The notes under the pieces were generated by a model. The model was not told the DNA's origin. It saw only the letters and a list, made by a program, of their open reading frames with translations, and made no database searches. From assembly GCF_000025545.1 (NCBI RefSeq), contig NC_013889.1, positions 1,791,501 to 1,855,500 of the forward strand: a stretch of 64,000 nucleotides of DNA, given 5' to 3'. Positions 20,173 through 37,548 of the stretch are shown here, one piece after another (positions within the stretch are counted from its first letter, which is position 1; every line of letters begins with the position of its first letter). A program made the translations under genes and the position numbers. Origin of the DNA: Thioalkalivibrio sp. K90mix (GTDB lineage: Bacteria; Pseudomonadota; Gammaproteobacteria; Ectothiorhodospirales; Ectothiorhodospiraceae).

Positions 20173-20760
20173 AAATCGGTTAGCAGCCGCGAGGGCAACA
20201 CCACGCCCCCACCCCGTCATGGCGAGGCCCCGCAGGGGCCGTGGCCATCTCCGAACGGAACCCCGGCCCCAGTCATCCCGTCCGCAGCGAAGCGAAGAGC
20301 CGGGATCTCCGCCCCCAGCCAAAGCCCAGGGGCGACCCAGCCAACACAACAGCGCGCAAACCCCCAACACTGACAATGTGCGTCAGTTCACATGACAACA
20401 ATGGTCACATGCGCCCTGTAACCATTTGTGGGACACCCACTTTCTTCCAACATTGGCGCACCGGGGACATTCGCACCTGCGGGACACCCACTTTGCAAGG
20501 AGAAACTGTGGCGGCCATCTGTGGGACACCCACTTTCTTCCCAGTTGTCATAAGCCCGATTCGCCGACACCAGCGACACAACTAACTGGCGGCAGACTCC
20601 ACACTCCCACTCCGCTCTTTCCCCCCAGGGCCACTAGCCTTCCGCCGGTGTGTTCGCCGTGGCGTGTTATGCCTTGCCAGACGACCGGGATAGCCCGAGG
20701 GTCCGCGGCTAATCCACCTCGCCAAATGCACTCGCAAGTTAATGTACATACAATAATTTG
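20173..20760. other. non-coding left edge of the accessory island
   Basis: 588 bp with no supported gene. From 20214 to 20330 it holds a GTCATCCCGTCCGCAGCGAA type GC-rich repeat element of unknown family. Three hairpin motifs follow at 20428-20533. From about 20545 onward it is related to 28420-28620 (shared GTTGTCATAAGCCCGATTCG-like and CATACAATAATT stretches), marking the left part of the brnTA duplication. Confidence 0.6.
20428..20533 (+). repeat. three GGACACCCACTTT hairpin motifs
   Basis: Copies at 20428-20440 (GTGGGACACCCAC), 20479-20491 (GCGGGACACCCAC) and 20521-20533 (GTGGGACACCCAC), each followed by TTT. The motif is itself a hairpin: GTGGG, loop ACA, CCCAC. These are the first of about 19 copies in the island. 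Confidence 0.85.
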
Positions 20761-21040
20761 ATAGGGATCGAGTTTGACGCAGACAAGGACGCTGCGAACC
20801 TGGCGAAACACGGGGGTCTCACTCGGCGATGCCCTCGGGCTCGAATGGGATACGCTCCTGGCCATGGAAGACCGACGGAAAAGCTACGGCGAACGGCGAA
20901 CGTTCGGGTACGCCTTGATGGGCGAACGCTTGTATTGCGTCGTATTCACCGATCGATCATCCGTGCGGCGGATCATCAGCCTGCGCAAAGCCAACAACCC
21001 GGAGATTGTGCGTTATGTCGAAATCACTAACGCTACGTAG
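20761..21040 (+). pseudogene. brnT-like toxin, frameshifted copy
   Basis: Related over its whole length to the intact gene at 28621-28899, but the start ATG is ATA and an extra G in the run at 20812-20816 shifts the frame after AANLAKHG. The remainder, SLGDALGLEWDTLLAMEDRR to YVEITNAT, is preserved in the other frame. The BrnT fold (ribonuclease toxin of BrnTA systems) is recognised from FDADKDAANLAKHGVS and RIISLRKAN. The toxin should be inactive. Confidence 0.85.
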
Positions 21041-21320
21041 CGGTCGCCGGGTCGTCTTGAACGACGCCGACGAAGAGTCGTCCATTCAGGCCGGAATCGA
21101 TGCGGACCCAGAGACCCGGGAACCTTCCGAAGACGAGACGAAAGCCCTGCGACGCGTGGGGCGCCCGCCTCTACCTGTAACTAAAGAGCGCATCACGATC
21201 CGTCTGTCGCCCGACGTCGTGGAGGCATTCCGCGCTACAGGAAAGGGCTGGCAAACGCGAATGGACTCGGCTTTGAAGGACTGGCTCAAGGACCATAGCC
21301 CGACGTCTAATAGTCGTTAG
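21015..21320 (+). CDS. brnA: BrnA-like antitoxin, orphan copy
   Basis: 101 residues from the ATG at 21015, overlapping the end of the broken toxin. It has the BrnA C-terminal ribbon-helix-helix region: RVGRPPLPVTKERITIRLSP followed by DVVEAFRATGKGWQTRMDSAL. Intact, while its toxin partner is frameshifted. It could still bind and repress brnTA operators, including that of the intact copy about 8 kb away. Confidence 0.85.
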   Translation: MSKSLTLRSGRRVVLNDADEESSIQAGIDADPETREPSEDETKALRRVGRPPLPVTKERITIRLSPDVVEAFRATGKGWQTRMDSALKDWLKDHSPTSNSR

Positions 21321-21379
21321 TGCCCGGCTGCGGCTCCGGCCGCGGTATCGTATGACCAACTGACATCGCGGTGGCATCT

Positions 21380-21392
21380 GCGGCACACCCAC
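21380..21392 (+). repeat. GGACACCCACTTT hairpin motif (variant)
   Basis: GCGGCACACCCAC followed by TTTCC. It has one mismatch in the left arm and lies 60 bp after the brnA stop codon. Confidence 0.75.
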
Positions 21393-21762
21393 TTTCCTCC
21401 CCACGCTACACGGCCCCTCGGTCAGGCCCCGGATAACCGCTGCGCGCTTTCCGGGATGGCTACTGGATGCAGCGCCTTCAGGAAATGATCAGAGACGATC
21501 GCACGCGGGGCACCGAGACTACGACGACACCGCTTTGCGGCGCTCCCAGGGGCTCCAGGCTTGTGACCTGATATTGCCGGGGCACAGAACGCAAAAGGGC
21601 CGCCCGTGGATTCCCTTCCCGGACGACCCTTTAGGGGCTTCCTTGCCCCAGGGCACAATCTAGCACGAGCCTCGTGGATTTCCAGCTGCACACCGAAGAG
21701 GCCGCCGAACGGTCGTTTTTGCGCCATAGGCGGTACTTTTGGATGGAATAAACTTCGGCATT
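21393..21762. other. non-coding module between hairpin motifs
   Basis: 370 bp with no recognised gene. A 130-codon minus-strand frame crosses it (21422-21814) but has no recognisable domain and runs through the hairpin motif, so it is not supported. No partner copy of this segment was seen in the window. Confidence 0.4.
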
Positions 21763-21775
21763 GTAGGACACCCAC
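21763..21775 (+). repeat. GGACACCCACTTT hairpin motif upstream of RAYT copy A
   Basis: GTAGGACACCCAC then TTTCTCAAGACA. It is followed by about 75 bp, ending GGAAGGAGTCCACG, that is conserved upstream of the intact RAYT at 26269. The motif is thus part of the conserved 5' end of the RAYT unit. Confidence 0.85.
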
Positions 21776-21854
21776 TTTCTCAAGACAGGCCCTTGCTATC
21801 GCGGCTGATCGCATCTAGGTTCTGAATCGTCCGATTCCATGGAAGGAGTCCACG

Positions 21855-22842
21855 ATGACCCAACCCCGCTCGTCCCTCGTGTCCGTCGAGGACACGCCCT
21901 GGTACCACGTCGTCTCACGCTGCGTTCGGCGCGCCTTTCTCTGCGGCGAGGATCGCGTGTCCGGACACAACTTCGAGCATCGCCGCGAATGGATCGAGAC
22001 GCGGATCCTGGAGCTGGCCGCGATCTTCGCCATCGATGTGGCTGCCTATGCCGTGATGAGCAATCACTACCATGTGGTGGTACGGCTGGACCCTGAACGC
22101 GCAGCCTCACTGGACACCGAGTCCGTCCTGCTTCGCTGGACGCGGCTGTTCTCGGGCCCCGAATTGGTTAGGCAGTATCTGTCTCCACGTCGGAAAGCGA
22201 TGTGCGACGCACAGTTACGCCGGGTCGAGGCGTACGCCCAAACGTATCGGAACCGGCTGGCAGATCTGTCGTGGTTCATGCGTGTGCTGAATGAATCCAT
22301 CGCACGACAGGCCAATGAGGAGGAAGGCGTCAAGGGACGATTCTGGGAGGGGCGCTTCAAGAGTCAGGCCCTGCTGGATGACGCAGCCGTGCTGGCGGCC
22401 ATGAGCTACGTGGACTTGAATCCGGTCCGTGCCGGGATGGCCGAAGCCTTGCACGAGTGTGATCACACTTCGCTGAAACGGCGTATCCGCCCGGAGGCCG
22501 AGGATGATTCGGCGTGCGCCACTGATGCCATTTGATGCAAGCGGCCAGTTCGAACCGGCGATCCCATTTGCGTTCGAGGATTACCTGGAGATGACGGACA
22601 CATTGGGGCGCTGCGTACATCCGACGAAACGAGGATCCATTCCCGCGCACCGCCCTCGCCTGCTCGACCAGCTGGGCATGGATGCCGAAGCCTTCATCCG
22701 GCAATCCAGCCATCTATTGCGCGCGTTCGGCTCGGCCATTGGCGCACCGGAGCAGTTGGTGAGCCTCGCCGAACGTCGGCAGTGCCGCTACCTCCGAGGA
22801 ATCTCCATGGCGCGGGCGCTGTTCGCCCGCCCTGCTGCTTGA
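21855..22842 (+). pseudogene. long RAYT-like transposase, frameshifted copy A
   Basis: The first 215 or so codons match the intact copy at 26269-27402 and keep HxH (SNHYHVVVRLD) and Tyr (MSYVDLNPVRAGM). After RRIRPEAEDD a segment of about 35 codons present in the other copy is missing and the frame shifts, stopping at 22535. The C-terminal part, APLMPFDASGQFEPAIPF to ARALFARPAA, continues in another frame to 22842. The catalytic domain may still be made as a 226-residue protein. Confidence 0.85.
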
Positions 22843-23384
22843 ACCCGAGCGCAGGACGTCGACTTGGCATGGATGAATTTCGGTTGTTTGGGCCGCTCGC
22901 GGCCGGTTCGATCCACGTTGTTCCGCGGCACTGTTGGCGAGTTAGGCCTTAGTGGGGCTCACCTGGGCCCCCAAAAGAAAGAGCCACCCGGGCTTCCGTT
23001 CCTGGGCGGCTCTAGCGAAGGCATCCCTGCCTTCGGGGTTGAAAGTAGCACATCGTTTGCCAATTTCTAGATGTATTTCCCGCTTTTCGTCGAACGGCCC
23101 TATGCGCCGACTGAGCGGTACTTCCTCTAACAGAGCAACGATTGTTTTATCTTTCGATTGCAGGCTGAACACCAGGCAATGCGCTTAGCCTAGCTCTGCT
23201 GAAGAATCAGGGGAGAGTGCGGCGACGGACATGGCAGCGACGTCCCTGGCGCATTGCCCCGGAAGCCGTTGCCCCCGAGATGTGGATAGACACTAAACCG
23301 GAGTCACCGTCACTGAAAGGGCGTCAGCAGTTGCACAGGGACTTTGCGGGGCACCCAACCCAAGGCCCAGGCCTCCGCGGTGGA
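22843..23384. other. intergenic region downstream of RAYT copy A
   Basis: 542 bp. Its middle (22973-23160) is a conserved element also present at 30763-30952. The remainder to 23384 holds only a decayed motif-like GCGGGGCACCCAACC near 23347; no other feature seen. Confidence 0.5.
22973..23160 (-). repeat. conserved element paired with 30763-30952; possible minus-strand small ORF
   Basis: About 190 bp, alignable almost end to end with 30763-30952. Read on the minus strand, both copies stay open and give related peptides (KTIVALLEEVPLSRR versus KTIVTLLEKVPFSGR, then RCATFN and EGRDAF). Many differences fall at third codon positions. The frame ends near a hairpin (AGAGCCRCCC pairing with GGGTGGCTCT) followed by T-rich sequence on the minus strand, resembling a terminator. 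No family recognised and starts differ, so it may be a remnant of a gene 3' end. Confidence 0.45.
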
Positions 23385-23984
23385 TCAACCCGGCTCGGCG
23401 GGCTTGCATGCGTGAATCTGCACGACAGCACCACGGCCCGTATGAAAAACACCTTCAACCACGTCACGCTCGACCTCGACCGCATGAATGAACTCAAGGC
23501 CGGTCAGTTCATCACGCAGCTCTGGCAGATTCATCATGAGCGCCTCGGTAGGCGGTCCCCCGGTTCCCAGGGCCAGTTGCGCCGGCGTATACCCCTCCAG
23601 AATGAAACGCCCGCCAGGCCTCAAGCCAGCGACCGCCTCCCGATGTAGCCGACGCCGAGTATCGGGCGGCAGATGGCAGAAAATCGAGACGACAAGGTCC
23701 CAACGGTTCGGCTGGATACTGTAGTCGGTCAGATCCGCGACTTCCGTCCGGATCGCGACATGACGTTGCGTCGCAAGACGCTCGGCCTTCTCCAGACCTA
23801 CTGACGAACTATCCACCGCCAGCACATCGAACCCACGTTCGGCCAGAAAGACCGCGTTTCGTCCCTCACCTTCGGCCAGGCAAAGAGCTTTCCCAGGCGG
23901 AACCCCCGAGATCTGCTCGGCCAGGAAATCGTTCGGCCGAGTACCGTAGACATACTCATCCGTGGCGTACCGTTCATCCCACAT
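23385..23984 (-). CDS. class I SAM-dependent methyltransferase (TehB-like)
   Basis: 199 residues from the ATG at 23984 (GGAG seven bases upstream). MWDERYATDEYVYGTRPNDF start, then motif I GKALCLAEGEGRNAVFLAER, acidic loop VLAVDSSSVGL, VADLTDY and motif IV-like WDLVVSIFCHLP; LRPGGRFILEGY completes the Rossmann fold. The substrate is unknown; TehB-like proteins methylate tellurite or small acceptors. It opposes the island gene direction and has no duplicate here. Confidence 0.88.
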   Translation of the reverse strand: MWDERYATDEYVYGTRPNDFLAEQISGVPPGKALCLAEGEGRNAVFLAERGFDVLAVDSSSVGLEKAERLATQRHVAIRTEVADLTDYSIQPNRWDLVVSIFCHLPPDTRRRLHREAVAGLRPGGRFILEGYTPAQLALGTGGPPTEALMMNLPELRDELTGLEFIHAVEVERDVVEGVFHTGRGAVVQIHACKPAEPG

Positions 23985-24022
23985 CAATCGACTCCACCCG
24001 TTGGTTCCTTGCCCTCAAGTAT

Positions 24023-24095
24023 GTGCAGGACACCCACTTTGTGGGCACCCACTTTGTGGGCGAGCACCTGCCCTGCGCAGTTAAGGGACACCCAC
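24023..24095 (+). repeat. three clustered GGACACCCACTTT hairpin motifs
   Basis: GCAGGACACCCACTTT near 24025-24039, immediately GTGGGCACCCACTTT at 24041-24055 (one loop base missing), and AAGGGACACCCACTTT ending at 24098. They separate the methyltransferase module from the NavBac module. Confidence 0.82.
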
Positions 24096-24242
24096 TTTGT
24101 GGGTGGGTTCGCGGCTGCCAGCCAATTGCCGGAAAGCGGAGTTTCGCCTACTCTTGCACGCCTTTCCGGACTGGTCCACGGCGAGCCCGCCGCGCCGCCG
24201 AAATGTCGAACCACCAGCGAACCACCAGAGCCCAGAACCGCC

Positions 24243-25085
24243 ATGAGCGCACCGACCTCGCTACGCCAGCGCCTCGAGCATTTTATCGAAGCCCGTCTCA
24301 CCCAGCGCGCAATCATCGCGCTGATCCTGCTGAACGCCGTGACGCTGGGGTTGGAGACGTCCGATACCGTAATGGGCTGGATGGGCCCGGTGATCCTCAC
24401 GGCAGACGCCGTCATCCTGTCGATCTTTACGGCCGAGGTACTGGCCAAGCTGTTTGTCTATCGCCTGAGTTTCTGGCGCAACCCCTGGAATGTCTTCGAC
24501 TTCTTCGTGGTGGGGATCGCACTCATCCCGGCCTCCGGACCGTTCTCGGTATTGCGCGTGCTGCGACTGCTGCGCCTGGTATCGATGGTGCCCAAACTGC
24601 GCTTTATCGTGGAGGCGCTCCTGCGGGCCATCCCCGGGATCGTGTCGATCATGGGCCTGCTGGTGCTGATCTTCTACGTGTTCGCGATCATCGCGACCGG
24701 GCTGTTCAGCGACTCGTTCCCGCAAAAATTCGGGACGCTCGGGGCCTCGATGTACAGCCTGTTCCAGGTAATGACACTGGAAGGCTGGTCCGAAGACATC
24801 GCACGCCCGGTGATGGAGATCTACCCCTGGGCCTGGGCGTTCTTTGTGCCATTCATCCTGATCGCCACGTTCACCGTGCTGAACCTGTTCATCGCGATCA
24901 TCGTGGACGCGATGCAGCGCATGCATGATCGCGCAATCGAGATCGAGCAGCAGATGATCCATGACAGCGTGCACGAGGAGAACAAGGCACTGCACGCTGA
25001 GATCCACGAGATCCAGCAGGAAACCGTCAAGCTGCAGGAACGCCTCATCCGCATGCAGAACATGCTGGAGAAGCGGGTGAAGTAA
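24243..25085 (+). CDS. NavBac-type voltage-gated sodium channel, copy 1
   Basis: 280 residues. S1-S4 voltage sensor (S4: RVLRLLRLVSMVPKLR with regularly spaced arginines), S5, pore loop with selectivity filter TLEGWSED, S6 ending FIAIIVDAMQRMH, then a C-terminal coiled coil (IEIEQQMIHDSVHEENKALH to LIRMQNMLEKRVK). This is the single-domain, tetrameric prokaryotic Nav design. NaChBac has TLESWS; here Ser is Gly and an acidic residue follows. It is about 90% identical to the copy at 31165. Such channels support sodium-linked pH and motility physiology in alkaliphiles. Confidence 0.93.
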   Translation: MSAPTSLRQRLEHFIEARLTQRAIIALILLNAVTLGLETSDTVMGWMGPVILTADAVILSIFTAEVLAKLFVYRLSFWRNPWNVFDFFVVGIALIPASGPFSVLRVLRLLRLVSMVPKLRFIVEALLRAIPGIVSIMGLLVLIFYVFAIIATGLFSDSFPQKFGTLGASMYSLFQVMTLEGWSEDIARPVMEIYPWAWAFFVPFILIATFTVLNLFIAIIVDAMQRMHDRAIEIEQQMIHDSVHEENKALHAEIHEIQQETVKLQERLIRMQNMLEKRVK

Positions 25086-25130
25086 CGGACCCGGGGACGG
25101 AGGCCAGGCTGTGGCTCTCCGACGCGGGCA

Positions 25131-25204
25131 GGGGCTTCGCCGCCAAGGCGGCTCCTACAAAGCCACACCCCACCTCCGGTAGCCTGCTTGCAGGCGAAGC
25201 CCCT
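25131..25204. repeat. REP-II pair, unoccupied
   Basis: GGGGCTTCGCCGCCAAGGCG then GCTCCTAC, and further right GTAGCCTGCTTGCAGGCGAA. It lies at the same position relative to NavBac copy 1 as the IS110-occupied REP-II half beside NavBac copy 2. It therefore serves as an empty-site comparison (GGCTC-CT-ACAAAG). Confidence 0.82.
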
Positions 25205-25291
25205 GCCAAAGCCAGCCCCACCTCAACGAACGGTGCTTGCGTGGCCTTCAATGCCCCCCTGCGTGCCCTCGGACACGCAGGGGCCGCTGGA

Positions 25292-25578
25292 TCAGGCGTT
25301 GGCAGCGGCCGGCTCGGCGGCGCGTTCGCCCAGGCGGCGACCGGTGGCGTTCAGCACGGCCTGCAGCGTGGCGGCGGTGGTGTCCTCGCCCAAAGCAACG
25401 CCGACGGAGCGTTCACCGTCGACCTGCACATCTACCGCGGCCATCGCGCGCGCCTCGGTGCCGGATTCCATGGCGTGCTCGTCGAAGTGGCTCACCTTGA
25501 CCTCGACACCCCGATCCGCCTGCATCGCGGCGGTCAGGGCCTCGACCGCGCCGTGGCCCTCGCCCTGCAGGCGTGACT
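25292..25578 (-). pseudogene. leuA 3'-terminal fragment
   Basis: About 95 codons matching the C terminus of the complete leuA at 33427: RESRLQGEGHGAVEALTAAM to LNATGRRLG, ending AAEPAAANA. Similarity stops abruptly at SRES, directly at the hairpin motif at 25586. It has the same position and orientation relative to NavBac as the complete leuA, showing that a NavBac-leuA block was duplicated and cut. Confidence 0.9.
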
Positions 25579-25585
25579 CGCGACT

Positions 25586-25598
25586 CTGGGACACCCAT
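25586..25598 (+). repeat. GGACACCCA hairpin motif at leuA fragment breakpoint
   Basis: CTGGGACACCCAT followed by TTTGATGTCACGAGC. The same motif plus GATGTCACGAGC stands before the second phd-vapC copy at 29651, so it is the left border of the duplicated phd-vapC module. Confidence 0.82.
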
Positions 25599-25681
25599 TT
25601 TGATGTCACGAGCCCACCCATTTAGGCGACGGCTAGCGCCGAGGTATGATATGACCATCTATATGGTCAGGAGAGTGCGAA

Positions 25682-25924
25682 ATGTCCGAGCCGACGATTA
25701 GTCTGGCGAACGCCAAAGCCCACCTGAGCGAACTGGCTGAACGTGCTGCTGCAGGTGAATCCATCCTCATCACCAAGCGAGGCAAGGCGGTCGTGCGCCT
25801 TTCCAGCGCCACCGCACCCAGGAAGCCGATCGATGCGAATGCGCTCCGTGCAGTCACGGATACCCAGAGCAACAGTGTCGATGAGAGCTTCATCCGTCGT
25901 ATCCGCGATGATGCTCGCTACTGA
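25682..25924 (+). CDS. Phd/YefM-family antitoxin, copy 1
   Basis: 80 residues: SEPTISLANAKAHLSELAER then AAAGESILITKRGKAVVRL, the Phd/YefM DNA-binding domain, followed by a toxin-neutralising tail ending RRIRDDARY. It is identical in protein to copy 2 at 29747. A partial palindrome (ATATGACCATCTATATGGTC) about 10-30 bp upstream looks like its operator. Stop and vapC start overlap by one base (TGATG). Confidence 0.9.
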   Translation: MSEPTISLANAKAHLSELAERAAAGESILITKRGKAVVRLSSATAPRKPIDANALRAVTDTQSNSVDESFIRRIRDDARY

Positions 25925-26196
25925 TGCGCTATCTGGATACCAGCATTCTGGTGGCGGCCCTCACTCGCGAGCCCCGAACCGAGGATATGCAGAAGTGGCT
26001 GGCGGCACAGAGCGCCGATTCGCTATGCATAAGTGACTGGGTGCTTACGGAGTTCTCCACGGCCTTGTCCATGAAGGTTCGAATGGAGATCCTGACACCC
26101 CGGGAACGGGCAACCGTGCTTGGCGCATTTGCGGCATTGCGGGAATCGTCACTCTCGACGCTGCCGGTCTTGATCTGCAGGACACCCACGTTGTGA
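25924..26196 (+). pseudogene. VapC-like PIN toxin, 3'-truncated copy
   Basis: The first 82 or so codons match vapC copy 2 (one Thr/Ala change seen), including Asp5 and Glu43. After SSLSTLPV the sequence switches to LICRTPTL, encoded by the hairpin motif at 26177. The segment bearing the later catalytic acidic residues (AGDALHLA in copy 2) is lost, so the nuclease is predicted inactive. Confidence 0.88.
26177..26189 (+). repeat. GGACACCCAC hairpin motif between truncated vapC and RAYT copy B
   Basis: GCAGGACACCCAC followed by GTTGTGAAG. It is both the break in vapC and the conserved 5' border of RAYT copy B. Confidence 0.82.
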
Positions 26197-26268
26197 AGAA
26201 AAGACCTTGCGATCGCGGCTAATCGCATCTAGCTTCTGAACCATCTGATTCCATGGAAGGAGTCCACG

Positions 26269-27402
26269 ATGACCCAACCCCGCTCGTCCCTCGTGTCTAT
26301 CAAGGACACGCCCTGGTACCACGTCGTCTCCCGCTGCGTTCGGCGCGCCTTTCTCTGCGGCGAGGATCGCGTATCCGGACACAACTTCGAGCATCGCCGC
26401 GAATGGATCGAGACGCGGATCCTGGAGCTGGCGGCGATCTTCACCATTGATGTCGCAGCCTATGCGGTGATGAGCAATCACTATCACGTTGTAGTTCGAC
26501 TGGACCCCGAGCGGGCGGCCGCGCTGGATACCGAGTCCGTCCTGCGTCGCTGGACGCGCCTGTTCTCTGGCCCCGAGTTGGTTAGACAGTACCTGTCGCC
26601 TCGGCGGAAGGCGATGTGCGCCGCACAGGTTCGGCGGGTCGAGGAATACGCCCAAACCTATCGGGCCCGACTGGCCGATCTGTCGTGGTTCATGCGCGTG
26701 TTGAACGAGTCCATTGCCCGACAGGCCAACGAGGAGGAAGGCATCAAGGGACGATTCTGGGAGGGCCGCTTCAAGAGTCAGGCGCTGCTGGATGATGCCG
26801 CCGTGCTGACGGCCATGAGCTACGCGGACCTGAACCCGATCCGGGCCGGGATGGCCGAGACGCTGGACGAGAGTGACCACACGTCACTGCAACGGCGTCT
26901 CCGCCAGGAGGGGACCGAGGCAGACGCACAGACCGGGGCAGTTGCGACTCCAAATGGGCCCCAGCCATGCGGTCCACCAGATGCCTTGCGCCCGGAGAAT
27001 GAGCTTCGATCGCTTCCCCAGGCGCCCCTGATGCCGTTTGATGCAACCGGGCAGTTCGAACCGGCTATTCCGTTCGCATTCGAGGATTACCTGGAGCTGA
27101 CCGATACGCTGGGGCGTTGCGTCCACCCCACGAAACGGGGATGGATTCCGGCGCACCGTCCTCGCCTGCTAGACCGCTTGAGCATGGATGCCGAGACTTT
27201 TATCCAGCAATCCAGCAGTCTATTGCGCGCGTTCGGATCGGCGATTGGCGCACCAGAGCAGTTGGTGGATTTGGCCGCGCGCAGACAGTGCCGCTACCTG
27301 CGCGGGATGTCCATGGCTCGGGCGCTGTTCGCCCGCCCCGCCGCTTTGGCGCCGCACCTCACACTCCAACGCAGGTTTCGGGCCAGGCATTCGGGTTTGT
27401 GA
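26269..27402 (+). CDS. long RAYT-like Y1 transposase, intact copy B
   Basis: 377 residues with a strong ribosome site (GGAAGGAG, seven bases before ATG). Metal-binding His71/His73 in SNHYHVVV, catalytic Tyr185 in MSYADLNPIRAGMA, and GRFWEGRFKSQALLDDAAVL. The C-terminal extension (from about 250) with PFDATGQFEPAIPFAFEDYL has no recognised domain. The gene lies in the same direction as every hairpin motif in the island. Y1 transposases of this type bind short hairpins, so the motif is its likely substrate. Confidence 0.9.
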   Translation: MTQPRSSLVSIKDTPWYHVVSRCVRRAFLCGEDRVSGHNFEHRREWIETRILELAAIFTIDVAAYAVMSNHYHVVVRLDPERAAALDTESVLRRWTRLFSGPELVRQYLSPRRKAMCAAQVRRVEEYAQTYRARLADLSWFMRVLNESIARQANEEEGIKGRFWEGRFKSQALLDDAAVLTAMSYADLNPIRAGMAETLDESDHTSLQRRLRQEGTEADAQTGAVATPNGPQPCGPPDALRPENELRSLPQAPLMPFDATGQFEPAIPFAFEDYLELTDTLGRCVHPTKRGWIPAHRPRLLDRLSMDAETFIQQSSSLLRAFGSAIGAPEQLVDLAARRQCRYLRGMSMARALFARPAALAPHLTLQRRFRARHSGL

Positions 27403-28329
27403 CTGACTTCGCTTGCCGGGGTCGGGGATACTGCATACCTTAAGCCGCGAGCACCTCCCCCCTGTGTGCTCCGCGCCCCGCATCTCCCCCAGAGGCGGGG
27501 CGTTTTTTTGTCACTGGGCATGGCACACACGTGCATTGGTGTTTGTTGCCGCGGGCCCGGTCTTGCGGCTCACCCAGGCCCGCCAGTCCGCAGGCCGTCA
27601 TGCGCACCTTCCCATATTGCGGGGTACCCACTTCCATCACCGCCGCGACTTGAGCCGCTGGAGGTCGATGGCGAAACCTTGATCCGTCCATCCGGCCGCT
27701 CACGCAGCTCGCATTCGGCTCAACGAATGGTACGAGCGCGGTCCGCCTGAGCGATTCGCCAGGCATAAGCCGAAGAACCTGCGGATCGGCGATTGGCGCA
27801 CCAGAGCAGTTGGTGGATTTGGCCGCGCGCAGACAGTGCCGCTACCTGCGCGGGATGTCCATGGCTCGGGCGCTGTTCGCCCGCCCCGCCGCTTTGGCGC
27901 CGCACCTCACACTCCAACGCAGGTTTCGGGCCAGGCATTCGGGTTTGTGACTGACTTCGCTTGCCGGGGTCGGGGATACTGCATACCTTAAGCCGCGAGC
28001 ACCTCCCCCCTGTGTGCTCCGCGCCCCGCATCTCCCCCAGAGGCGGGGCGTTTTTTTGTCACTGGGCATGGCACACACGTGCATTGGTGTTTGTTGCCGC
28101 GGGCCCGGTCTTGCGGCTCACCCAGGCCCGCCAGTCCGCAGGCCGTCATGCGCACCTTCCCATATTGCGGGGTACCCACTTCCATCACCGCCGCGACTTG
28201 AGCCGCTGGAGGTCGATGGCGAAACCTTGATCCGTCCATCCGGCCGCTCACGCAGCTCGCATTCGGCTCAACGAATGGTACGAGCGCGGTCCGCCTGAGC
28301 GATTCGCCAGGCATAAGCCGAAGAACCTG
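27234..28329 (+). repeat. perfect 548 bp tandem duplication
   Basis: Units 27234-27781 and 27782-28329 appear identical base for base where compared. Each begins CGGATCGGCGATTGGCGCAC (inside the RAYT 3' end) and ends AAGAACCTG. The unit covers the last 56 codons of the RAYT, its terminator and about 380 bp of non-coding sequence with a degraded motif (GCGGGGTACCCACTT). The second unit ends directly at a hairpin motif. 27403-28620 holds no other supported gene. Confidence 0.92.
27475..27510 (+). terminator. Rho-independent terminator after RAYT copy B
   Basis: Stem GCCCCGC (27475-27481) pairs with GCGGGGC (27495-27501), followed by GTTTTTTTG. An identical copy lies at 28023-28058 in the second tandem unit. 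Confidence 0.85.
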
Positions 28330-28341
28330 TGGGACACCCAC
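28329..28341 (+). repeat. GGACACCCACTTT hairpin motif at the end of the tandem duplication
   Basis: GTGGGACACCCAC followed by TTTTCTGTGGGATC. It abuts the last base of the second 548 bp unit. Confidence 0.85.
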
Positions 28342-28390
28342 TTTTCTGTGGGATCTGCAAACAGGGGACAGATTTATTTCCCCTCCTCGA

Positions 28391-28417
28391 ACCCCGGCCT
28401 CGTGCCGGGTTTTTTTG
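28391..28417 (+). terminator. Rho-independent terminator with GGGGACAGATT leader
   Basis: Stem CCCCGGC / GCCGGGT with loop CTCGT, then seven or more T. It is preceded by GGGGACAGATTTATTTCCCC at 28364-28383. A related unit occurs at 30447-30500. Confidence 0.8.
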
Positions 28418-28620
28418 TTGCCATAAGGCCGATTCGTCGACGCAGCCAGCCACAGGCTGTTCATCCACATCCCGCCCCCACTCCCCAAATCGGCCAGGAT
28501 CCACCAAGTACCCCACCCAACGCGTCACATGGGCCGCCAGACGACGGCCATTCTCGGGCCCTCCGAGGGGTTCCGACCCTGCCAATTGCGCACGCCAGTT
28601 CCTGTGCATACAATAATTCG

Positions 28621-28899
28621 ATGGAGATCGAGTTTGACGCAGACAAGGACGCTGCGAACCTGGCGAAACACGGGGTCTCACTCGGCGATGCCCTATGGCT
28701 GGAATGGGATACGCTCCTGGCCATGGAAGACCGACGGAAAAGCTACGGCGAATGCCGAATGCTCGGATACGCGCTGATGGGCGATCGCTTGTATTGCGTC
28801 GTCTATACCGATCGATCATCCGTTCGCCGCATTATCAGCCTGCGCAAAGCCAACAACCGGGAGATTGCGCGCTATGTCGAAATCACTAACGCTACGTAA
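28621..28899 (+). CDS. brnT: BrnT-like ribonuclease toxin, intact copy
   Basis: 92 residues starting MEIEFDADKDAANLAKHGVS. BrnT toxins are RelE-fold ribonucleases; the family signature F-D-x-D-K-x-x-x-N-x-x-KHG and the C-terminal RIISLRKANNREIARYVE are present. The stop overlaps the brnA start by 26 bp. CATACAATAATTCG just upstream may form part of the promoter. It is the intact partner of the frameshifted copy at 20761. Confidence 0.9.
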   Translation: MEIEFDADKDAANLAKHGVSLGDALWLEWDTLLAMEDRRKSYGECRMLGYALMGDRLYCVVYTDRSSVRRIISLRKANNREIARYVEITNAT

Positions 28900-29179
28900 C
28901 GGTCGGCGCGTCGTATTGAATGAGGCCGACGAGGAAGCAGCAATCCAGGCCGGGATCCATGCGGACCCTGAGACCCACGAGCCCTCCGAGAACGCAGCAA
29001 AAGCGCTGCGGCGCGTGGGTCGCCCTCCGCTGGCGGTAACCAAGGAACGGATTACGATTCGGCTATCGCCAGACGTCGTGGAGGCATTTCGGGCAACCGG
29101 GAAGGGCTGGCAGACACGAATGGACGCAGCCTTGAAGGACTGGCTCAAGGATCACACCCCGAACTCGAACAGTCGATAG
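28874..29179 (+). CDS. brnA: BrnA-like antitoxin, copy 2
   Basis: 101 residues from the ATG at 28874. SKSLTLRNGRRVVLNEADEE at the N terminus, then RRVGRPPLAVTKERITIRLS and DVVEAFRATGKGWQTRMDAAL (ribbon-helix-helix region of BrnA). It neutralises BrnT and represses the operon in known systems. It differs from the orphan copy at 21015 mainly in residues 15-45. Confidence 0.9.
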   Translation: MSKSLTLRNGRRVVLNEADEEAAIQAGIHADPETHEPSENAAKALRRVGRPPLAVTKERITIRLSPDVVEAFRATGKGWQTRMDAALKDWLKDHTPNSNSR

Positions 29180-29200
29180 ATTTGATCCTCCTGACATACC

Positions 29201-29261
29201 CTGGGACACCCACTTTCCAGCACCGTCTGTGGGGACGCCTCACCGTCTGTGGGACACCCAC
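29201..29261 (+). repeat. two GGACACCCAC hairpin motifs at the IS3 remnant border
   Basis: CTGGGACACCCAC-TTT at 29201-29216 and GTGGGACACCCAC at 29249-29261. In the second, TTT is replaced by TGAGCTGGTCTAATTT, which looks like the left end of an IS3-type element, so the IS probably entered or was joined exactly at the motif. Confidence 0.8.
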
Positions 29262-29490
29262 TGAGCTGGTCTAATTTCCGTGGACGCCTCGTTCGGTGGG
29301 ACGACACCCCCTGGACGAGGAGAACAACCATGGCACGCAAGCGCCGACGTTTTTCAAGCGAACACAAGGAGCGCGTAGCCCGGATGGTGGTCGATGACGG
29401 TCTGGAGGTCTCGGTCGTATGCCGGGATCAGGATCTAGGTGAGACGGCCGTTCGCCGCTGGGTCGATCAACTCAATGTATTAGACCTGTG
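29262..29490 (+). mobile_element. IS3-family remnant (left end and orfA start)
   Basis: It starts TGAGCTGGTCTAATTTCCGT, a typical IS3-type end. A truncated orfA follows from 29330: MARKRRRFSSEHKERVARMV with the helix-turn-helix ETAVRRWVDQL. After about 53 codons it is cut at TTAGACCTGTGGGACC, directly before a hairpin motif. orfB and the right end are absent. Confidence 0.8.
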
Positions 29491-29623
29491 GGACCTGTGG
29501 GACACCCACTTTCCTCTGACCTGCCGGGATCAGGATCTAGGTGAGACGGCCGTTCGCCGCTGGGTCGATCAACTCAATGTATTAGACCTGTGGGACCTGT
29601 GGGACACCCACTTTCCTCTGACC
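29420..29623 (+). repeat. 102 bp tandem duplication containing the hairpin motif
   Basis: Units 29420-29521 and 29522-29623 look identical; each starts TGCCGGGATCAGGATCTAGG and carries one GTGGGACACCCAC (29497-29509 and 29599-29611). The duplication includes the end of the IS3 orfA fragment, so it occurred after the IS3 remnant was joined to the motif. Confidence 0.9.
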
Positions 29624-29650
29624 TGTGGGAAACCTGTTGGACGTCTCGCT

Positions 29651-29663
29651 CAGGGACACCCAC
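29651..29663 (+). repeat. GGACACCCACTTT hairpin motif left of phd-vapC copy 2
   Basis: CAGGGACACCCAC then TTTGATGTCACGAGCC. It is the same border sequence as at 25586, from which the two phd-vapC modules run in parallel. Confidence 0.85.
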
Positions 29664-29746
29664 TTTGATGTCACGAGCCAACGCATTTCCGCGACGGCTA
29701 GCGCCGAGGTATGATATGACCATCTATATGGTCAGGAGAGTGCGAA

Positions 29747-29989
29747 ATGTCCGAGCCGACGATTAGTCTGGCGAACGCCAAAGCCCACCTGAGCGAACTG
29801 GCTGAACGTGCTGCTGCAGGTGAATCCATCCTCATCACCAAGCGAGGCAAGGCGGTCGTGCGCCTTTCCAGCGCCACCGCACCCAGGAAGCCGATCGATG
29901 CGAATGCGCTCCGTGCAGTCACGGATACCCAGAGCAACAGTGTCGATGAGAGCTTCATCCGTCGTATCCGCGATGATGCTCGCTACTGA
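29747..29989 (+). CDS. Phd/YefM-family antitoxin, copy 2
   Basis: 80 residues, same protein as the copy at 25682 including KTHL-type DNA-binding residues (NAKAHLSELAERAAAGES) and tail DESFIRRIRDDARY. The upstream palindrome ATATGACCATCTATATGGTC is conserved. It overlaps vapC by one base. The near-identity of the two modules implies a recent duplication. Confidence 0.92.
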   Translation: MSEPTISLANAKAHLSELAERAAAGESILITKRGKAVVRLSSATAPRKPIDANALRAVTDTQSNSVDESFIRRIRDDARY

Positions 29990-30411
29990 TGCGCTATCTG
30001 GATACCAGCATTCTGGTGGCGGCCCTCACTCGCGAGCCCCGAACCGAGGATATGCAGAAGTGGCTGGCGGCACAGAGCGCCGATTCGCTATGCATAAGTG
30101 ACTGGGTGCTTACGGAGTTCTCCGCGGCCTTGTCCATGAAGGTTCGAATGGAGATCCTGACACCCCGGGAACGGGCAACCGTGCTTGGCGCATTTGCGGC
30201 ATTGCGGGAATCGTCACTCTCGACGCTGCCGGTCTCATCCATCGATTACCACACCGCTGCCCACTTCGCCGACGATCATGCCTCCGGGTTACGCGCTGGC
30301 GACGCCCTTCACCTGGCCATTGCGTACAACCACGGCGTGGAACTTTGCTCTCTCGACAAGACGCTCATGGCCGCTGCAGAACCCATGGGCGTGAATGCGA
30401 CGCTGCTGTAA
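29989..30411 (+). CDS. VapC-like PIN-domain ribonuclease toxin, intact
   Basis: 140 residues. PIN acidic residues: Asp5 (MRYLDTSIL), Glu43 (VLTEFSAAL), then the AGDALHLAIAYNHG block and CSLDKTL near the C terminus. VapC toxins cleave tRNA or rRNA and are held by the cognate antitoxin, here a Phd-type protein encoded one base upstream. It is the complete counterpart of the truncated gene at 25924. Confidence 0.92.
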   Translation: MRYLDTSILVAALTREPRTEDMQKWLAAQSADSLCISDWVLTEFSAALSMKVRMEILTPRERATVLGAFAALRESSLSTLPVSSIDYHTAAHFADDHASGLRAGDALHLAIAYNHGVELCSLDKTLMAAAEPMGVNATLL

Positions 30412-30474
30412 CGGGAACCCGTGCAGCCTTCCATTCCGAAAGTTAAAGGGGACAGATTGATTGTCCTTCCCCGA

Positions 30475-30500
30475 ACCCCGGCCTCGTGCCGGGGTTATTT
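30475..30500 (+). terminator. hairpin terminator after vapC copy 2
   Basis: Stem ACCCCGGC / GCCGGGGT with loop CTCGT followed by TATTTG. It is preceded by GGGGACAGATTGATTGTCC at 30448-30466, related to the unit at 28364. Confidence 0.7.
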
Positions 30501-30514
30501 GTTGCGGGGAGGGG

Positions 30515-30527
30515 TACAGGACACCCA
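30515..30527 (+). repeat. last GGACACCCACTTT hairpin motif of the island
   Basis: TACAGGACACCCACTTT then GTGTGGACACACCC. It abuts the RAYT 3' remnant at 30545. Confidence 0.82.
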
Positions 30528-30544
30528 CTTTGTGTGGACACACC

Positions 30545-30638
30545 CGAGCAGTTGGTGGACCTGGCCGCGCAGACGCAGCGCCGCTATCCAAGGTGCATGT
30601 CCATGGCTCGGTCGCTGTTCGTGCGCCACGCCGCTTGA
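30545..30638 (+). pseudogene. RAYT 3'-terminal remnant (copy C)
   Basis: GAGCAGTTGGTGGACCTGGC onward corresponds to the last 30 codons of RAYT copies A and B (EQLVDLA..RRQCRYLRGMSMARALFARP). It carries several substitutions and ends in TGA at the equivalent place. Everything upstream of this point in the gene is missing; the break is just after a hairpin motif. Confidence 0.8.
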
Positions 30639-30762
30639 TGCGCGAACGCGCAGATCACGAAACCGCAGGACATTGGCCCATTTCGGTGCGATTCGCGTGG
30701 TTCTTCGCACCCTGCGGGGGTGCCGGCTGGTCAGGGGGGAGAGGCTTGAATACGGGGAGGTA

Positions 30763-30952
30763 CAAAAAGAAAGAGCCACCCCGGCTTCCGTTCCTGGGCG
30801 GCTCTAGTGAAGGCGTCCCTGCCTTCGCGGTTAAAAGTAGCACATCGATTACTGATTTCTAGACTCAGTTCGGGTTTTTCGCCAAACGGCGGCATACGGC
30901 CACTGAACGGTACTTTCTCCAAGAGAGTAACGATTGTTTTGTTTCGCGATTA
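30763..30952 (-). repeat. conserved element, second copy (see 22973-23160)
   Basis: Alignable with 22973-23160 through AAAGAGCCACCCCGGCTTCC to CGATTGTTTTG. Minus-strand reading gives RCATFNREGRDAFTRAAQER then KPGWLFL, as in the other copy. A terminator-like hairpin with T-rich tail lies at its minus-strand end. In both places it follows a RAYT 3' end and precedes NavBac, so it belongs to the ancestral duplicated block. Confidence 0.5.
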
Positions 30953-31164
30953 TGCGTATGCGGCCCGCGATCTATCTCATGCCTGTCTCGTCGCAACATC
31001 GAGCGTTTTTCGCTCGTTGTCTGGCTGCGGCGTCTCGGGGGAATTGCCGCTGATTCGGCTTTCGCCTACTCTCTTGCGGCTTCCCATAGACGGCGTTGCG
31101 GGCCGTGATCCGCGAATCGTTCCGGGATGTTCCATTCGCAATCGACACCAGGCACCCAAGCACC

Positions 31165-32007
31165 ATGAGCGAGCCCACCACGCTGCGCGGCCGTCTCGGC
31201 CAGTTCATCGAGGCGCGCCTGACCCAGCGCGCGATCATCGCGCTGATCCTGCTGAATGCCCTGACCCTGGGGCTGGAGACGTCCGACACGGTCATGGCCT
31301 GGATGGGCCCAGTGATCCTCGCGGCAGACACGATCATCCTGTCGATCTTTACGGCCGAGGTGCTGGCGAAGCTGTTTGTCTATCGCCTGAGTTTCTGGCG
31401 CAACCCCTGGAACGTGTTCGACTTCTTCGTGGTGGGGATCGCACTGATCCCGGCCTCCGGGCCGTTCTCGGTGCTGCGCGTGCTGCGTCTGTTGCGCCTG
31501 GTATCGATGGTGCCGAAGTTGCGCTTTATCGTGGAGGCCCTGTTGCGGGCCATCCCCGGGATTATCTCCATCCTGGGGTTGCTGGTGCTGATCTTCTATG
31601 TATTCGCGATCATCGCCACAGGCCTTTTCAGCGAGTCCTTCCCGCAGAAGTTCGGGACACTCGGCGCCACGATGTACAGCCTGTTCCAGGTCATGACGCT
31701 GGAGGGCTGGTCCGAAGATATCGCCCGCCCGGTGATGGAGGTCTACCCCTGGGCCTGGGCCTTCTTCGTGCCGTTCATCCTGATCGCCACGTTTACCGTG
31801 CTGAACCTGTTCATCGCGATCATCGTGGACGCGATGCAGCGCATGCATGATCGCGCGATCGAGATCGAGCAGCAGATGATCCACGACAGCGTGCACGAGG
31901 AGAACAAGGCGCTGCACTCGGAGATCCACGAGCTGCAGCAGGAAACGGTCAAGCTCCAGGAACGCCTCATCCGCATGCAGAGCATGCTGGAGAAACGGGT
32001 GAAGTAA
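31165..32007 (+). CDS. NavBac-type voltage-gated sodium channel, copy 2
   Basis: 280 residues, same architecture as copy 1: S4 RVLRLLRLVSMVPKLR, selectivity filter TLEGWSED, S6 and C-terminal coiled coil to MLEKRVK. Differences are conservative and scattered (for example GIVSIMGLL versus GIISILGLL), so both copies appear to be under purifying selection. An IS110-occupied REP-II half and then the complete leuA lie downstream, presumably the original locus order. Confidence 0.93.
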   Translation: MSEPTTLRGRLGQFIEARLTQRAIIALILLNALTLGLETSDTVMAWMGPVILAADTIILSIFTAEVLAKLFVYRLSFWRNPWNVFDFFVVGIALIPASGPFSVLRVLRLLRLVSMVPKLRFIVEALLRAIPGIISILGLLVLIFYVFAIIATGLFSESFPQKFGTLGATMYSLFQVMTLEGWSEDIARPVMEVYPWAWAFFVPFILIATFTVLNLFIAIIVDAMQRMHDRAIEIEQQMIHDSVHEENKALHSEIHELQQETVKLQERLIRMQSMLEKRVK

Positions 32008-32050
32008 CAGGCTCCGGGACGGAGGCCAGGCTGAGGCTCTCCGACGCGGG

Positions 32051-32078
32051 CCGGGGCTTCGCCTGCAAGCAGGCTCCT
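32051..32078 (+). repeat. REP-II half interrupted by IS110 copy 2
   Basis: GGGGCTTCGCCTGCAAGCAG then GCTCCT, ending at the CT core 32077-32078. The remainder of the REP (ACA...) resumes at 33276 after the IS. Confidence 0.88.
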
Positions 32079-32267
32079 TGTGTCTTGCGGTTCACGGATC
32101 GCTACCATGAACCGTATTGGGCTCGGGTAACCCGTCAGGCTCCTGAGGTCACGAACCTGTTCTGTAGATTGGCCCCGAGTCCTTTCTCATCTCGAAGTTT
32201 GAACGGTATCCAAGACCCCCCTCCGTGACGGACGGGTGAGGCTGTACGGACAAGGCGAGAGGACGAG
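32079..32267 (+). ncRNA. putative IS110 bridge RNA region, copy 2
   Basis: 189 bp before the transposase. A stem CTCGGG (32122-32127) / CCCGAG (32174-32179) encloses CAGGCTCCT (32136-32144), identical to the target left half through its CT core, and TCTGTAG (32161-32167), complementary to the target right half CTACAG. Further on, ACGGTATC (32203-32210) matches the IS right end and CAAGAC (32211-32216) is complementary to GTCTTG of the left end. This fits target- and donor-binding loops of IS110 bridge RNAs; the donor pair is less certain because its halves are adjacent. Confidence 0.65.
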
Positions 32268-33260
32268 ATGGCTCATATTGGCGTTGATGTTAGCAAGAAC
32301 AAGCTCGACTGCATGTGGGTCCGGGATCTGGAGGCGGGCAAGGTGAAGCCCAAGGTGTTCCCGAACCGCCAAGACCAGTACCGGGAGCTGCTGCACTGGC
32401 TCGAGCGCAACACCGGCGAGACCCCCGAGGGGCTCCATGTGTATCTGGAGGCCACTGGCATCTACCACGAGCCGCTGGCGTACTGGCTTCATGATCAGGG
32501 GGTGCAGGTCCACGTGCTGAACCCGGCCCAGGTGCGTTCGCATGCCAAGGGCATGGGGGTGCGCAACAAGACCGACCGCAAGGACAGCATGATGCTGGCC
32601 CGCTACGGCATCGAACGCGCACCACGGCGCTGGCAGCCCGAACCGCCGGAGGTGCGGGAACTCAAGCGCCTGCTCAGCCGCCTGGAGGCTCTGGAACAGG
32701 ATATGCGGCGCGAAGAGAACCGCCTGGAGAAGGCGCGTTTCAGTGAGGACACCCTCGCTCAGGCGTCGATCGACAACGTCCTGCAGGCCCTGCGTGAGGA
32801 ACACCGTCGGCTCCAGCAGCAGATCGACGATCACTTCGACGCCCATCACCACCTGAAGCGGGATCGGACCTTGCTGGAGAGCATCCCCGGCATCGGCCGC
32901 GTGCTGTCGGCCTCGATGACCGCAGCGCTGCGCAGCCGCGCGTTCACGAGCGCTCGACAAGCGGCGGCGTTCCATGGGCTGGCGCCGGTCCTGGAAGAAT
33001 CGGGGGCCACGGTCCGGCGGCCCTCGCGGTTGGCAAAGATCGGTTCCAGCCGACTGCGCAAGGCGCTCTACATGGCGGCGGTGGTGGCGACCCGGTACAA
33101 CCCGGACGTGCGACACCAACATCAACGTCTGCTGACACGCGGCAAGGCCAAGATGTCGGCGATCGGGGCGGCCATGCGCAAACTCCTGCACATCGCCTTC
33201 GGTGTGCTCAAATCCCAAACCCCGTATCAAGCCCGCCATGAAACCCCTTGCACCCCGTAG
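32268..33260 (+). CDS. IS110-family DEDD transposase (recombinase), copy 2
   Basis: 330 residues, identical to copy 1 except ESGATV. DEDD RuvC-like N domain (IGVDVSKNKLD, YLEATG, KTDRKDSMML), coiled-coil linker, Tnp20 domain with IPGIGRVLSASMTAAL. Known mechanism in the family: RNA-guided strand exchange between a circular donor and the target at a shared dinucleotide, using a serine of the C-terminal domain. Confidence 0.95.
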   Translation: MAHIGVDVSKNKLDCMWVRDLEAGKVKPKVFPNRQDQYRELLHWLERNTGETPEGLHVYLEATGIYHEPLAYWLHDQGVQVHVLNPAQVRSHAKGMGVRNKTDRKDSMMLARYGIERAPRRWQPEPPEVRELKRLLSRLEALEQDMRREENRLEKARFSEDTLAQASIDNVLQALREEHRRLQQQIDDHFDAHHHLKRDRTLLESIPGIGRVLSASMTAALRSRAFTSARQAAAFHGLAPVLEESGATVRRPSRLAKIGSSRLRKALYMAAVVATRYNPDVRHQHQRLLTRGKAKMSAIGAAMRKLLHIAFGVLKSQTPYQARHETPCTP

Positions 33261-33311
33261 GGCAAGACGGTATCTACACACCGATAGCCGCCCGGCATTA
33301 CCCGTAGGCCC

Positions 33312-33397
33312 GCAGGATGCAATGAGCGCAGCGAATTGCATCAATGCCGCGTCGCTGCCTGCGACCGGTGCGTTTCGCGCGGCTCAACGCACCCTAC
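33312..33397. repeat. REP-I inverted pair between IS110 copy 2 and leuA
   Basis: GCAGGATGCAATGAGCGCAG left arm and GGTGCGTTTCGCGCGGCTCA then ACGCACCCTAC right arm. It lies downstream of the leuA stop. Confidence 0.82.
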
Positions 33398-33426
33398 GCG
33401 CCTTCGAGCGCGCAGGGGCCGCTGAA

Positions 33427-35121: not shown

Positions 35122-35277
35122 TCTCTCCTGGGGCCGCGGCATTCCGTCGCGGCGATTGGTCCACTTGCACATTATCCTAACGAATTTGCGCGGACAGAAC
35201 CTTGCTTTTTTCGCATATAGCGGGAGGTAAGAGGCTTTTTATTGCTTTAAATGACCTATCTGGCGCAATATTCCACC

Positions 35278-35769: not shown

Positions 35770-35821
35770 CGGCGGGCCGCGAACCTCCCTCCGAAACGGC
35801 TCCGATGGCTCAGCGCTTCCC

Positions 35822-37470: not shown

Positions 37471-37497
37471 GGTGGCAGGGCTTCCCTTGTTCATGTT

Positions 37498-37510: not shown

Positions 37511-37548
37511 GTTCTCTAATTCCGATCCGACACCCTGGAGACCCTGCC

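Follow-up and report, generated by a model that had tools for sequence, protein, structure and literature searches.

An oriented sequence motif at the ends of subclass 2.3 RAYT units in Thioalkalivibrio and its relatives

Many RAYT genes of the TnpAY1 subclass 2.3 type are preceded by a short motif on their own strand, and near-identical copies of these genes begin at it. In several lineages an inverted copy of the motif closes the unit on the right, while the clade of Thioalkalivibrio sp. K90mix lacks this partner. We consider it probable that subclass 2.3 RAYTs are single-strand HUH/Y1 transposases of small units whose ends are set by the oriented motif, read as sequence and not as a hairpin. 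The starting point was a stretch of 64,000 nucleotides of the K90mix genome (NC_013889.1, positions 1,791,501 to 1,855,500), called the window below; coordinates refer to it.

RAYT-B is an intact transposase of the subclass 2.3 type

On the basis of its open frame, homology and structural model, RAYT-B (26269..27402, forward strand, 377 residues) is an intact transposase of the TnpAY1 subclass 2.3 type. A preliminary description of this DNA had taken it as complete with HxH motif and catalytic tyrosine, and this is borne out: the 377-residue frame is open, His71, His73 and Tyr185 are kept, and the aligned relatives keep them too, since they are invariant in 70 of 70 rows of our RAYT alignment (the window and 69 relatives, which were picked for open frames). 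The assignment to subclass 2.3 is based on the NHYH, WE and Y..LNP motifs and a probable TS tail. N70-H71-Y72-H73 corresponds to the HUH motif NHYH of the subclass, with N70, H71 and H73 invariant over the 70 rows, as are W164 and E165 of the W motif WE, Y185 and D187-P190; the Y motif YVDLNP is matched with Ala in place of Val at position 186 in the window. In the tail, T205 is invariant and S206 nearly so, and a conserved C-terminal domain is present. The core insertion between beta3 and alphaC is represented in the model by helices 80-135, between strand 71-78 and helix 138-157. The part of Quentin et al. (2018; PMC6006769) covered here describes the subclass in similar terms, with the NH(Y)H, WE, Y..LNP and TS tail motifs, a long insertion (55 aa in the core) from the third strand to the next long helix, a long C-terminal domain and a range in Chromatiales and Alteromonadales.

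Profile matches to Pfam Y1_Tnp (E 0.0017) and to the NCBIfam REP-associated tyrosine transposase (E 2.9e-9) lie below the curated cut-offs. An AlphaFold2 model from 70 sequences (pLDDT 86.6, pTM 0.87) is closest, among solved structures, to E. coli TnpA_REP 4er8 (Foldseek E 2.9e-4; VIA Z 10.9, 158 residues, rmsd 3.2), and comparison with IS608 and ISDra2 (VIA Z 5-6) likewise places it in the Y1 transposase fold. The helical C-terminal domain occupies residues 246-358 (27004..27342, forward strand). This part had been described beforehand as having no recognisable domain, and indeed the roughly 113 C-terminal residues are without a Pfam match. Structure prediction, proposed at the same time, gave helices (pLDDT 83.9, pTM 0.59). 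Searched alone with Foldseek and VIA, the domain had no PDB match (best E 2.5, Z 2.9); a profile search of PDB sequences returned 0 hits, and no name came from Pfam and NCBIfam with the whole protein or from PHROGs with the whole protein and the domain. As modelled, the domain appears to be without a solved match, and a new fold does not follow from failed searches. RAYT-B has 19 extra C-terminal residues because the stop of its nearest relatives was lost (27343-27402); in the three nearest relatives the frame closes after residue 358 or 359. Endings in Ala-Ala-stop are common in the window's RAYT clade.

Values of dN/dS between RAYT-B and its counterparts in three related strains (loci L066-L068) are 0.13-0.17 overall, 0.07-0.10 in the core and 0.17-0.20 in the C-terminal part. 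A comparison of RAYT-B with the neighbouring, broken RAYT-A, which had been suggested as a check, gave 0.09 over the 5' part of RAYT-A. Between this 5' part and its ortholog dN is 0.002 and dS 0.08, and the 3' part differs from L067 by four nonsynonymous and three synonymous changes, a number too small for a verdict. The ratios support selection on the RAYT protein. An earlier suggestion of ongoing activity or selection can therefore be kept as selection on the protein, from dN/dS, and as mobility of the family, from same-genome copies of 90-98% identity with sharp ends.

An oriented motif precedes many subclass 2.3 RAYT genes

A copy of the motif GGACACCCA at 26180..26188 marks the left end of RAYT-B, and another at 21766..21774 marks that of RAYT-A; both are on the forward strand and each lies 89 nt before the start codon. 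Further copies on the same strand are found at 20431, 20482 and 20524 (20431..20532), at 24028 and 24086 (24028..24094) beside a methyltransferase-like gene, at 28332..28340, and at 29204, 29252, 29500 and 29602 (29204..29610), one of these four being on an exact 102-bp tandem duplication. There is no reverse GGACACCCA in a 22-kb stretch around RAYT-B. The 14-mer GGGACACCCACTTT occurs nine times in the genome, always within 20.4-29.7 kb of the window and on the forward strand, and its reversed control 0 times. For GGACACCCAC there are 31 copies (reversed control 11), 14 of them in this ~10 kb and all forward, and 17 elsewhere with eight on the forward and nine on the reverse strand.

In 47 genomes of the family, GGGACACCCACTTT is present in 42 copies in 18 genomes, and its reversed control in 2. 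By our own reading of the matches listed, 32 of the 42 lie within ~5 kb of a same-strand RAYT match, which in three of those genomes is only a short RAYT piece (28-48 residues); the other 10 are without a nearby RAYT match among those listed, several of them on short contigs. The GGACACCCA core was counted 139 times forward and 11 times reverse in 31 RAYT-oriented loci, namely the window region and stretches from 30 relatives. The variant GGGACAGGCAC is found 57 times in Exilibacterium, often clustered (reversed control 0), 22 times in genome G010 (control 6), where 17 copies share a strand within a single RAYT island, and 18, 11, 5 and 10 times in G001, G004, G047 and G049 (controls 7, 6, 2 and 0), so some genomes hold larger dispersed families and others local ones. 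Loci L097 and L089 have arrays of 15 and nine GGACACCCA copies, 23-60 nt apart, upstream of the RAYT; L089 also has six inverted copies downstream.

More distant relatives were taken as the best 80 named loci, of which 79 were examined and 78 had at least 100 nt upstream; L101, L104, L106, L108 and L123 are also present in the genome-derived set. GGACA[CGT][CG]CA occurs in forward orientation in the interval -200..0 in 53 of these 78 best-ranked loci (0.5 expected from dinucleotide shuffles) and in reverse in one, while 25 are without a strict upstream match, several of them with visible variants. The upstream motif of subclass 2.3 RAYTs, GGACA(N)(C/G)CA, thus extends over many Gamma- and some Betaproteobacteria, to which we take Comamonas and Extensimonas to belong. 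At the same loci there are 73 forward copies and one reverse copy in -200..0, and two forward and 77 reverse copies in +1000..+2000; these counts are not independent because the rows are related, and the pattern was widened after viewing the named loci, the downstream inverted copies having played no part in choosing it. Measured from the upstream motif nearest the gene, the distance to the start codon is 75-92 nt in 41 of 72 rows and 47-55 nt in nine.

The inverted copy behind the gene is matched to the copy in front. With the wider pattern, 33 of 97 rows have the repeat on both sides, and in 26 of these 33 the two variable letters agree between left and right (11.8 expected; 0 of 20,000 permutations reached this). 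On a tree of the 97 rows, made by a quick method with six rows skipped for short flanks, the variable letters change 18 times, against 29-31 times in the three shuffles printed. The window's RAYT falls into a clade of 25 rows (SH-aLRT 99), in which the strict upstream motif is present in 20 rows and the downstream inverted motif in none, compared with 38 of the 72 other rows; the remaining 34 are without a strict downstream copy. A second group of the Thioalkalivibrio type is also mostly without the right partner, so its absence is not unique to the window's clade. The state of the right partner changes 15 times on the tree, and we read its distribution as loss, not as gain elsewhere, although such counts cannot tell the two apart. 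No other right-end motif emerged in the window's clade, where no 8-mer downstream of 23 genes was common to more than four. At L082, L090, L091 and L095, which belong to another clade, the motif is near the gene on the right side only, with none within 250 nt upstream, and in three of them it reads AGTGCCTGTCC on the RAYT strand.

Near-identical RAYT copies begin, and in some lineages end, at the motif

Twelve copy pairs were used to map unit ends; the same-genome pairs L141/L179, L112/L113 and L105/L132 were outside this set. Four same-genome pairs share at least 90% identity: Colwellia (1,276 nt, 95.3%), a Sedimenticola MAG (1,286 nt, 98.0%), Exilibacterium (1,302 nt, 90.1%) and Salinisphaera (1,277 nt, 93.4%). 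In all four, the left boundary lies 1-18 nt upstream of the left motif and the right boundary between 7 nt inside the right inverted motif and 12 nt beyond it, with the qualification that one Salinisphaera copy is without the motif at its right block end and that the right motif of one Sedimenticola copy has a mismatch. Because they begin and end at motifs, these pairs have the appearance of mobile units whose ends are short inverted repeats, with no hairpin detectable on the left. The remaining eight pairs (72-90% identity, four of them between different species or genomes) gave the left end only, or neither.

In the window's clade, two of seven genome groups have near-identical full copies, the others being too diverged. 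One is L081/L181 (98.3% over 1,190 nt), two loci of the same genome separated by ~69 kb; their common block begins 9 nt upstream of the motif and breaks off ~20 nt short of the stop codon. The other is a 91.5% pair within L076, with its left boundary 2 nt upstream of the motif and its right boundary ~22 nt beyond the stop. At L088, two head-to-tail 1.3-kb units (94.1%) meet 9 nt before a motif, and several loci have 5'-anchored pieces of about 80-280 nt. We then compared the ends of 460 blocks (at least 90% identical, at least 60 nt) in the window region and related loci with shifted motifs as control. Left ends lay 0-14 nt 5' of a motif in 112 of 445 cases (shifted mean 4.3, maximum 28 in 300 shifts) and right ends in 34 of 449 (mean 4.7, maximum 26), the block ends not being independent events because many blocks are related RAYT copies. 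With laxer blocks, left ends were again concentrated at motifs (177 against 14.9 in the control), and right ends showed no excess (21 against 17.6). Of 527 motif pairs within loci, 22 extend downstream and three upstream with a score of 25 or more.

The hairpin REP with a GT[AG]G foot that is typical of REPtrons was not seen at the left end: 63 left contexts fold no better than shuffles (mean z 0.05, three below -2), and the left flanks are without covariation (flank permutation p 0.23). Hairpin recognition at this end was rejected on these two results. The copies next to RAYT-A and RAYT-B break a possible GTGGG/CCCAC stem. It had been proposed that A and B keep the same upstream block with a hairpin motif; a common block does begin at the motif, from 21762 and 26176, and its hairpin is unsupported. 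At the right end the flank permutation was borderline (p 0.03). For the window's clade, sequence around the final codons was folded in 28 rows (three of them misanchored); the mean z was -0.75 and five of 28, the window included, were below -2, and a hairpin at this place may serve as the right-end signal.

Several junctions in the window's island lie next to motif copies

In the island from ~20.4 to 32 kb most modules are present twice. The duplicates are the BrnT/BrnA toxin-antitoxin pair (about 20721-21320 and 28621..29179, forward; 84.5%), the RAYT (88 and 83%), a 187-nt piece (82%), a cation channel gene region (24223..25156, forward, and 31146-32078; 88.9%) and a PhdYefM/PIN toxin-antitoxin module preceded by the motif, of which the copy at 25589..26170 has its PIN gene cut at the RAYT-B unit and the copy at 29654..30411 has it whole (both forward; 98.8%, or 98.8-99.0% over 583-587 nt). 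Compared with the nearest strain (G023, locus L067), the window is colinear over 20422-25582 at 94-96% and over 33346-38000 at 98.0%. The extra, divergent segment of ~7.8 kb between these (25583..33345; 74-90% to relatives where aligned) has its left edge at the motif at 25589 and carries PhdYefM/PIN, RAYT-B, BrnTA, PhdYefM/PIN, a RAYT remnant and an ion channel. RAYT-A (21855..22842, forward) is the ortholog of an intact RAYT in G023. From the colinearity and the divergent segment, it follows that RAYT-A is the native copy, recently broken, and that RAYT-B belongs to the extra segment, which could have been acquired from another strain through ordinary homologous recombination.

This changes the earlier picture of one intact copy amid wreckage. 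RAYT-B is intact and sits on a divergent segment of its own, A was broken recently, and the supposed third copy, C, belongs to a segmental duplication. With identities of 87.8% in a block of 745 nt and 83.1% in one of 325 nt, A and B do not form a simple local pair: the stretch that holds the 5' part of A is 96.2% identical to the nearest strain and RAYT-B 84.3%. Copy A was said to have lost about 35 codons plus frame; the frame is lost, through a deletion of 89 nt between the two blocks, or ~30 codons. Copy C, regarded as only the last 30 codons, lies in an exact 548-bp tandem duplication (27234..28329, forward; 27234-27781 = 27782-28329, 100%) and comprises about the last 56. A true 3' remnant of that size is found instead at 30519..30638 (forward), where a motif copy is joined to roughly the final 33 codons of a RAYT; the part that fits, 30541-30638, begins 22 nt behind the start of the motif copy.

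Four junctions lie 3-12 nt 5' of a GGACACCCA copy. They are the left edge of the extra segment at 25582, the cut in the PIN gene at 26170, the right end of the 548-bp repeat at 28329, whose second copy stops 3 nt short of the motif at 28332, and the edge of a loss at 20419-20422; relative to L066, L067 and L068 the window lacks ~0.7 kb, and the right edge of this loss is at the copies in 20431-20532. At the first of these junctions a fragment read in frame as a leuA-like 3' end (25227..25582) is cut 6 nt before the motif at 25589, and the leuA-like 3' end is also found from 33362 onward. The methyltransferase-like gene (23385-23987, opposite strand) adjoins two motif copies and has a counterpart in L067 and, at 68%, in L066; it is absent from L068 and from the second island copy. 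The start of a frame in 29331-29625, which we take to resemble an IS3-type orfA, runs into a motif copy and is part of the exact 102-bp tandem duplication.

A proposed model for movement from linear ends and its alternatives

Outside the window's clade, the unit would in roughly half of the lineages run from the upstream motif through the gene to the inverted motif, mostly 135-290 nt past the stop codon. In the window's clade, homology sets in 1-12 nt ahead of the upstream motif, and the near-identical pairs mapped stop within ~25 nt of the RAYT stop codon. We propose that the RAYT binds the motif and nicks the coding strand a few nucleotides 5' of it, that Tyr185 holds the resulting 5' end, and that this end is joined to a second cut end, which in many cases lies 5' of a further motif copy. 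Repeated rounds would give head-to-tail clusters of same-strand motifs and 5'-anchored truncated copies, and would carry or break neighbouring DNA, here toxin-antitoxin genes; the RAYT would then be the cause of the rearrangements in the window. Such a scheme suggests that subclass 2.3 RAYTs are mobile and more than only domesticated, and that HUH/Y1 transposases can work from linear sequence ends. A defined end motif in a clade-typical place gives exact unit boundaries and opens binding and cleavage to direct tests. In one clade, two-ended movement may have given way to a one-ended form that shuffles toxin-antitoxin genes locally.

A bolder and rather doubtful extension is that the RAYT of the Thioalkalivibrio-type clade is a one-ended, motif-to-motif mobiliser for which the DNA between same-strand GGACACCCA copies is a cassette, nicked out as a single strand and re-joined 5' of another GGACACCCA copy. 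If so, motif clusters would grow in the manner of an integron and serve as a platform for small genes, toxin-antitoxin genes among them, with neither integrase nor recombination hairpin. One-ended transposition by IS91/ISCR elements and Helitrons has one defined end, a variable other end and capture of neighbouring genes; the likeness is in proposed behaviour only, as the enzymes differ.

The island could also be a recombination hotspot in which RAYT and toxin-antitoxin repeats recombine homologously or slip and the motifs ride along. The island is colinear with its relative except for one extra segment and the ~0.7-kb loss, the 89-nt loss in copy A and the exact 548- and 102-bp tandem repeats look like slippage, and right ends show no surplus at motifs when laxer blocks are taken. 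We nevertheless hold this to be unlikely, since near-identical block ends pile up at the 5' edge of the motif beyond every shifted control, including junctions whose matched partner has no motif there (the leuA-like fragment at 25582 and the PIN gene at 26170). Less likely still is that the motif is an autoregulatory operator at the RAYT promoter, its other copies being remnants of ordinary duplications of the promoter region. The distance from motif to start codon is indeed clade-typical, and 30 of 72 rows (1.3 expected) have a TTGAC (-35-like) box no more than 25 nt behind the left motif, at 4-9 nt in 28 of these 30; the upstream copy may therefore act as an operator, either in addition or exclusively. 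Arguments against an operator are the inverted copies past the stop that match the left subtype, the four pairs of at least 90% identity ending at both motifs (with the Salinisphaera and Sedimenticola exceptions), the arrays of up to 15 copies, and the 57 copies of one variant in one genome against 0 reversed.

That the gene is a conventional REPtron whose hairpin REPs decayed here seems very improbable to us. In fold, its core agrees with E. coli TnpA_REP, some of the copies in the window read GTGGGACACCCAC with a possible 5-bp stem, and the right-end flank permutation is borderline, as given above; against this stand the 63 left contexts with neither hairpin signal nor covariation, the stemless copies beside RAYT-A and RAYT-B, and the finding, in the part of Quentin et al. 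(2018; PMC6006769) covered, of no REP-like sequences for subclass 2.3 by automatic or manual search.

Relation to known systems

Compared with that published account of the subclass, as far as covered (PMC6006769), an oriented motif is present here, accompanied in roughly half of the other lineages by an inverted partner. Among published concepts, the TIRtron (Di Nocera et al., 2013; PMC3733652, in part) comes nearest. Like it, our units have a RAYT-like gene between terminal inverted repeats that are also clustered, and its core GGGGWSAS resembles GGACAC. The strict TIRtron 8-mer with four G differs from the 2.3 motif, and nGGACACCC of the window fits the GGWSAS core only. Unlike a TIRtron, the window's own RAYT copies and their clade are without a right inverted copy. 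The covered text of Quentin et al. (2018; PMC6006769) places 26 TIRYTs in subclasses 2.1, 2.2 and 2.5 and none in 2.3. REPs are described, in the portions covered, as palindromes with GTAG/GTGG heads, usually dispersed (Nunvar, 2010, PMC2817692; Bertels, 2011, PMC3116915). We see the same HUH/Y1 core and flanking repeats as in REPtrons, whereas the motif is linear and, in the window's genome, local. The fold of the catalytic domain is that of IS200/IS605 members (IS608, ISDra2). According to the covered parts of the respective papers, known members of that family are without terminal inverted repeats (PMC2817692) and their enzymes read subterminal hairpins (PMC6006769); the ends of the RAYT family differ, the right end of the window's clade aside. 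Among the matches listed from the RAYT literature, supplements being outside the scope, no title deals with such a motif for subclass 2.3, and among the titles listed for the motif strings in paper text none concerns these repeats. In the literature covered, a mobile unit with such sequence-specific ends, which our evidence supports, is described neither as a REP nor, for subclass 2.3, as a TIR.

Cargo genes and a second RAYT array

The motif islands of 12 loci contain 82 mechanical ORFs, and the 25 of 41 families listed for them include Pfam BrnT (4), BrnA (2), PIN (2), PhdYefM (2) and RelE (1). As flanks, 82 ORFs were drawn and one was left out; none of these five families is among the 25 listed of the 71 in the 81 flanking ORFs, where AAA_21 (putative AbiEii toxin) is found twice. 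An enrichment of toxin-antitoxin cargo in motif islands is suggestive only, because L066 and L067 are orthologous.

The K90mix genome has a further RAYT locus, L087 (G000:C1:1652384-1656916), with four matches of another subclass, 31-32% identical to RAYT-B. They form a tandem array in steps of 1.37-1.46 kb, with GGGGACAGATT copies around them in both orientations, and 12 of the 17 GGGGACAGATT-type 11-mers of the genome lie in this array. Two GGGGACAGATT copies are inside the window's island, at 28364 and 30448, and behind each of them is a terminator-like sequence, the two being similar (88% over 59 nt).
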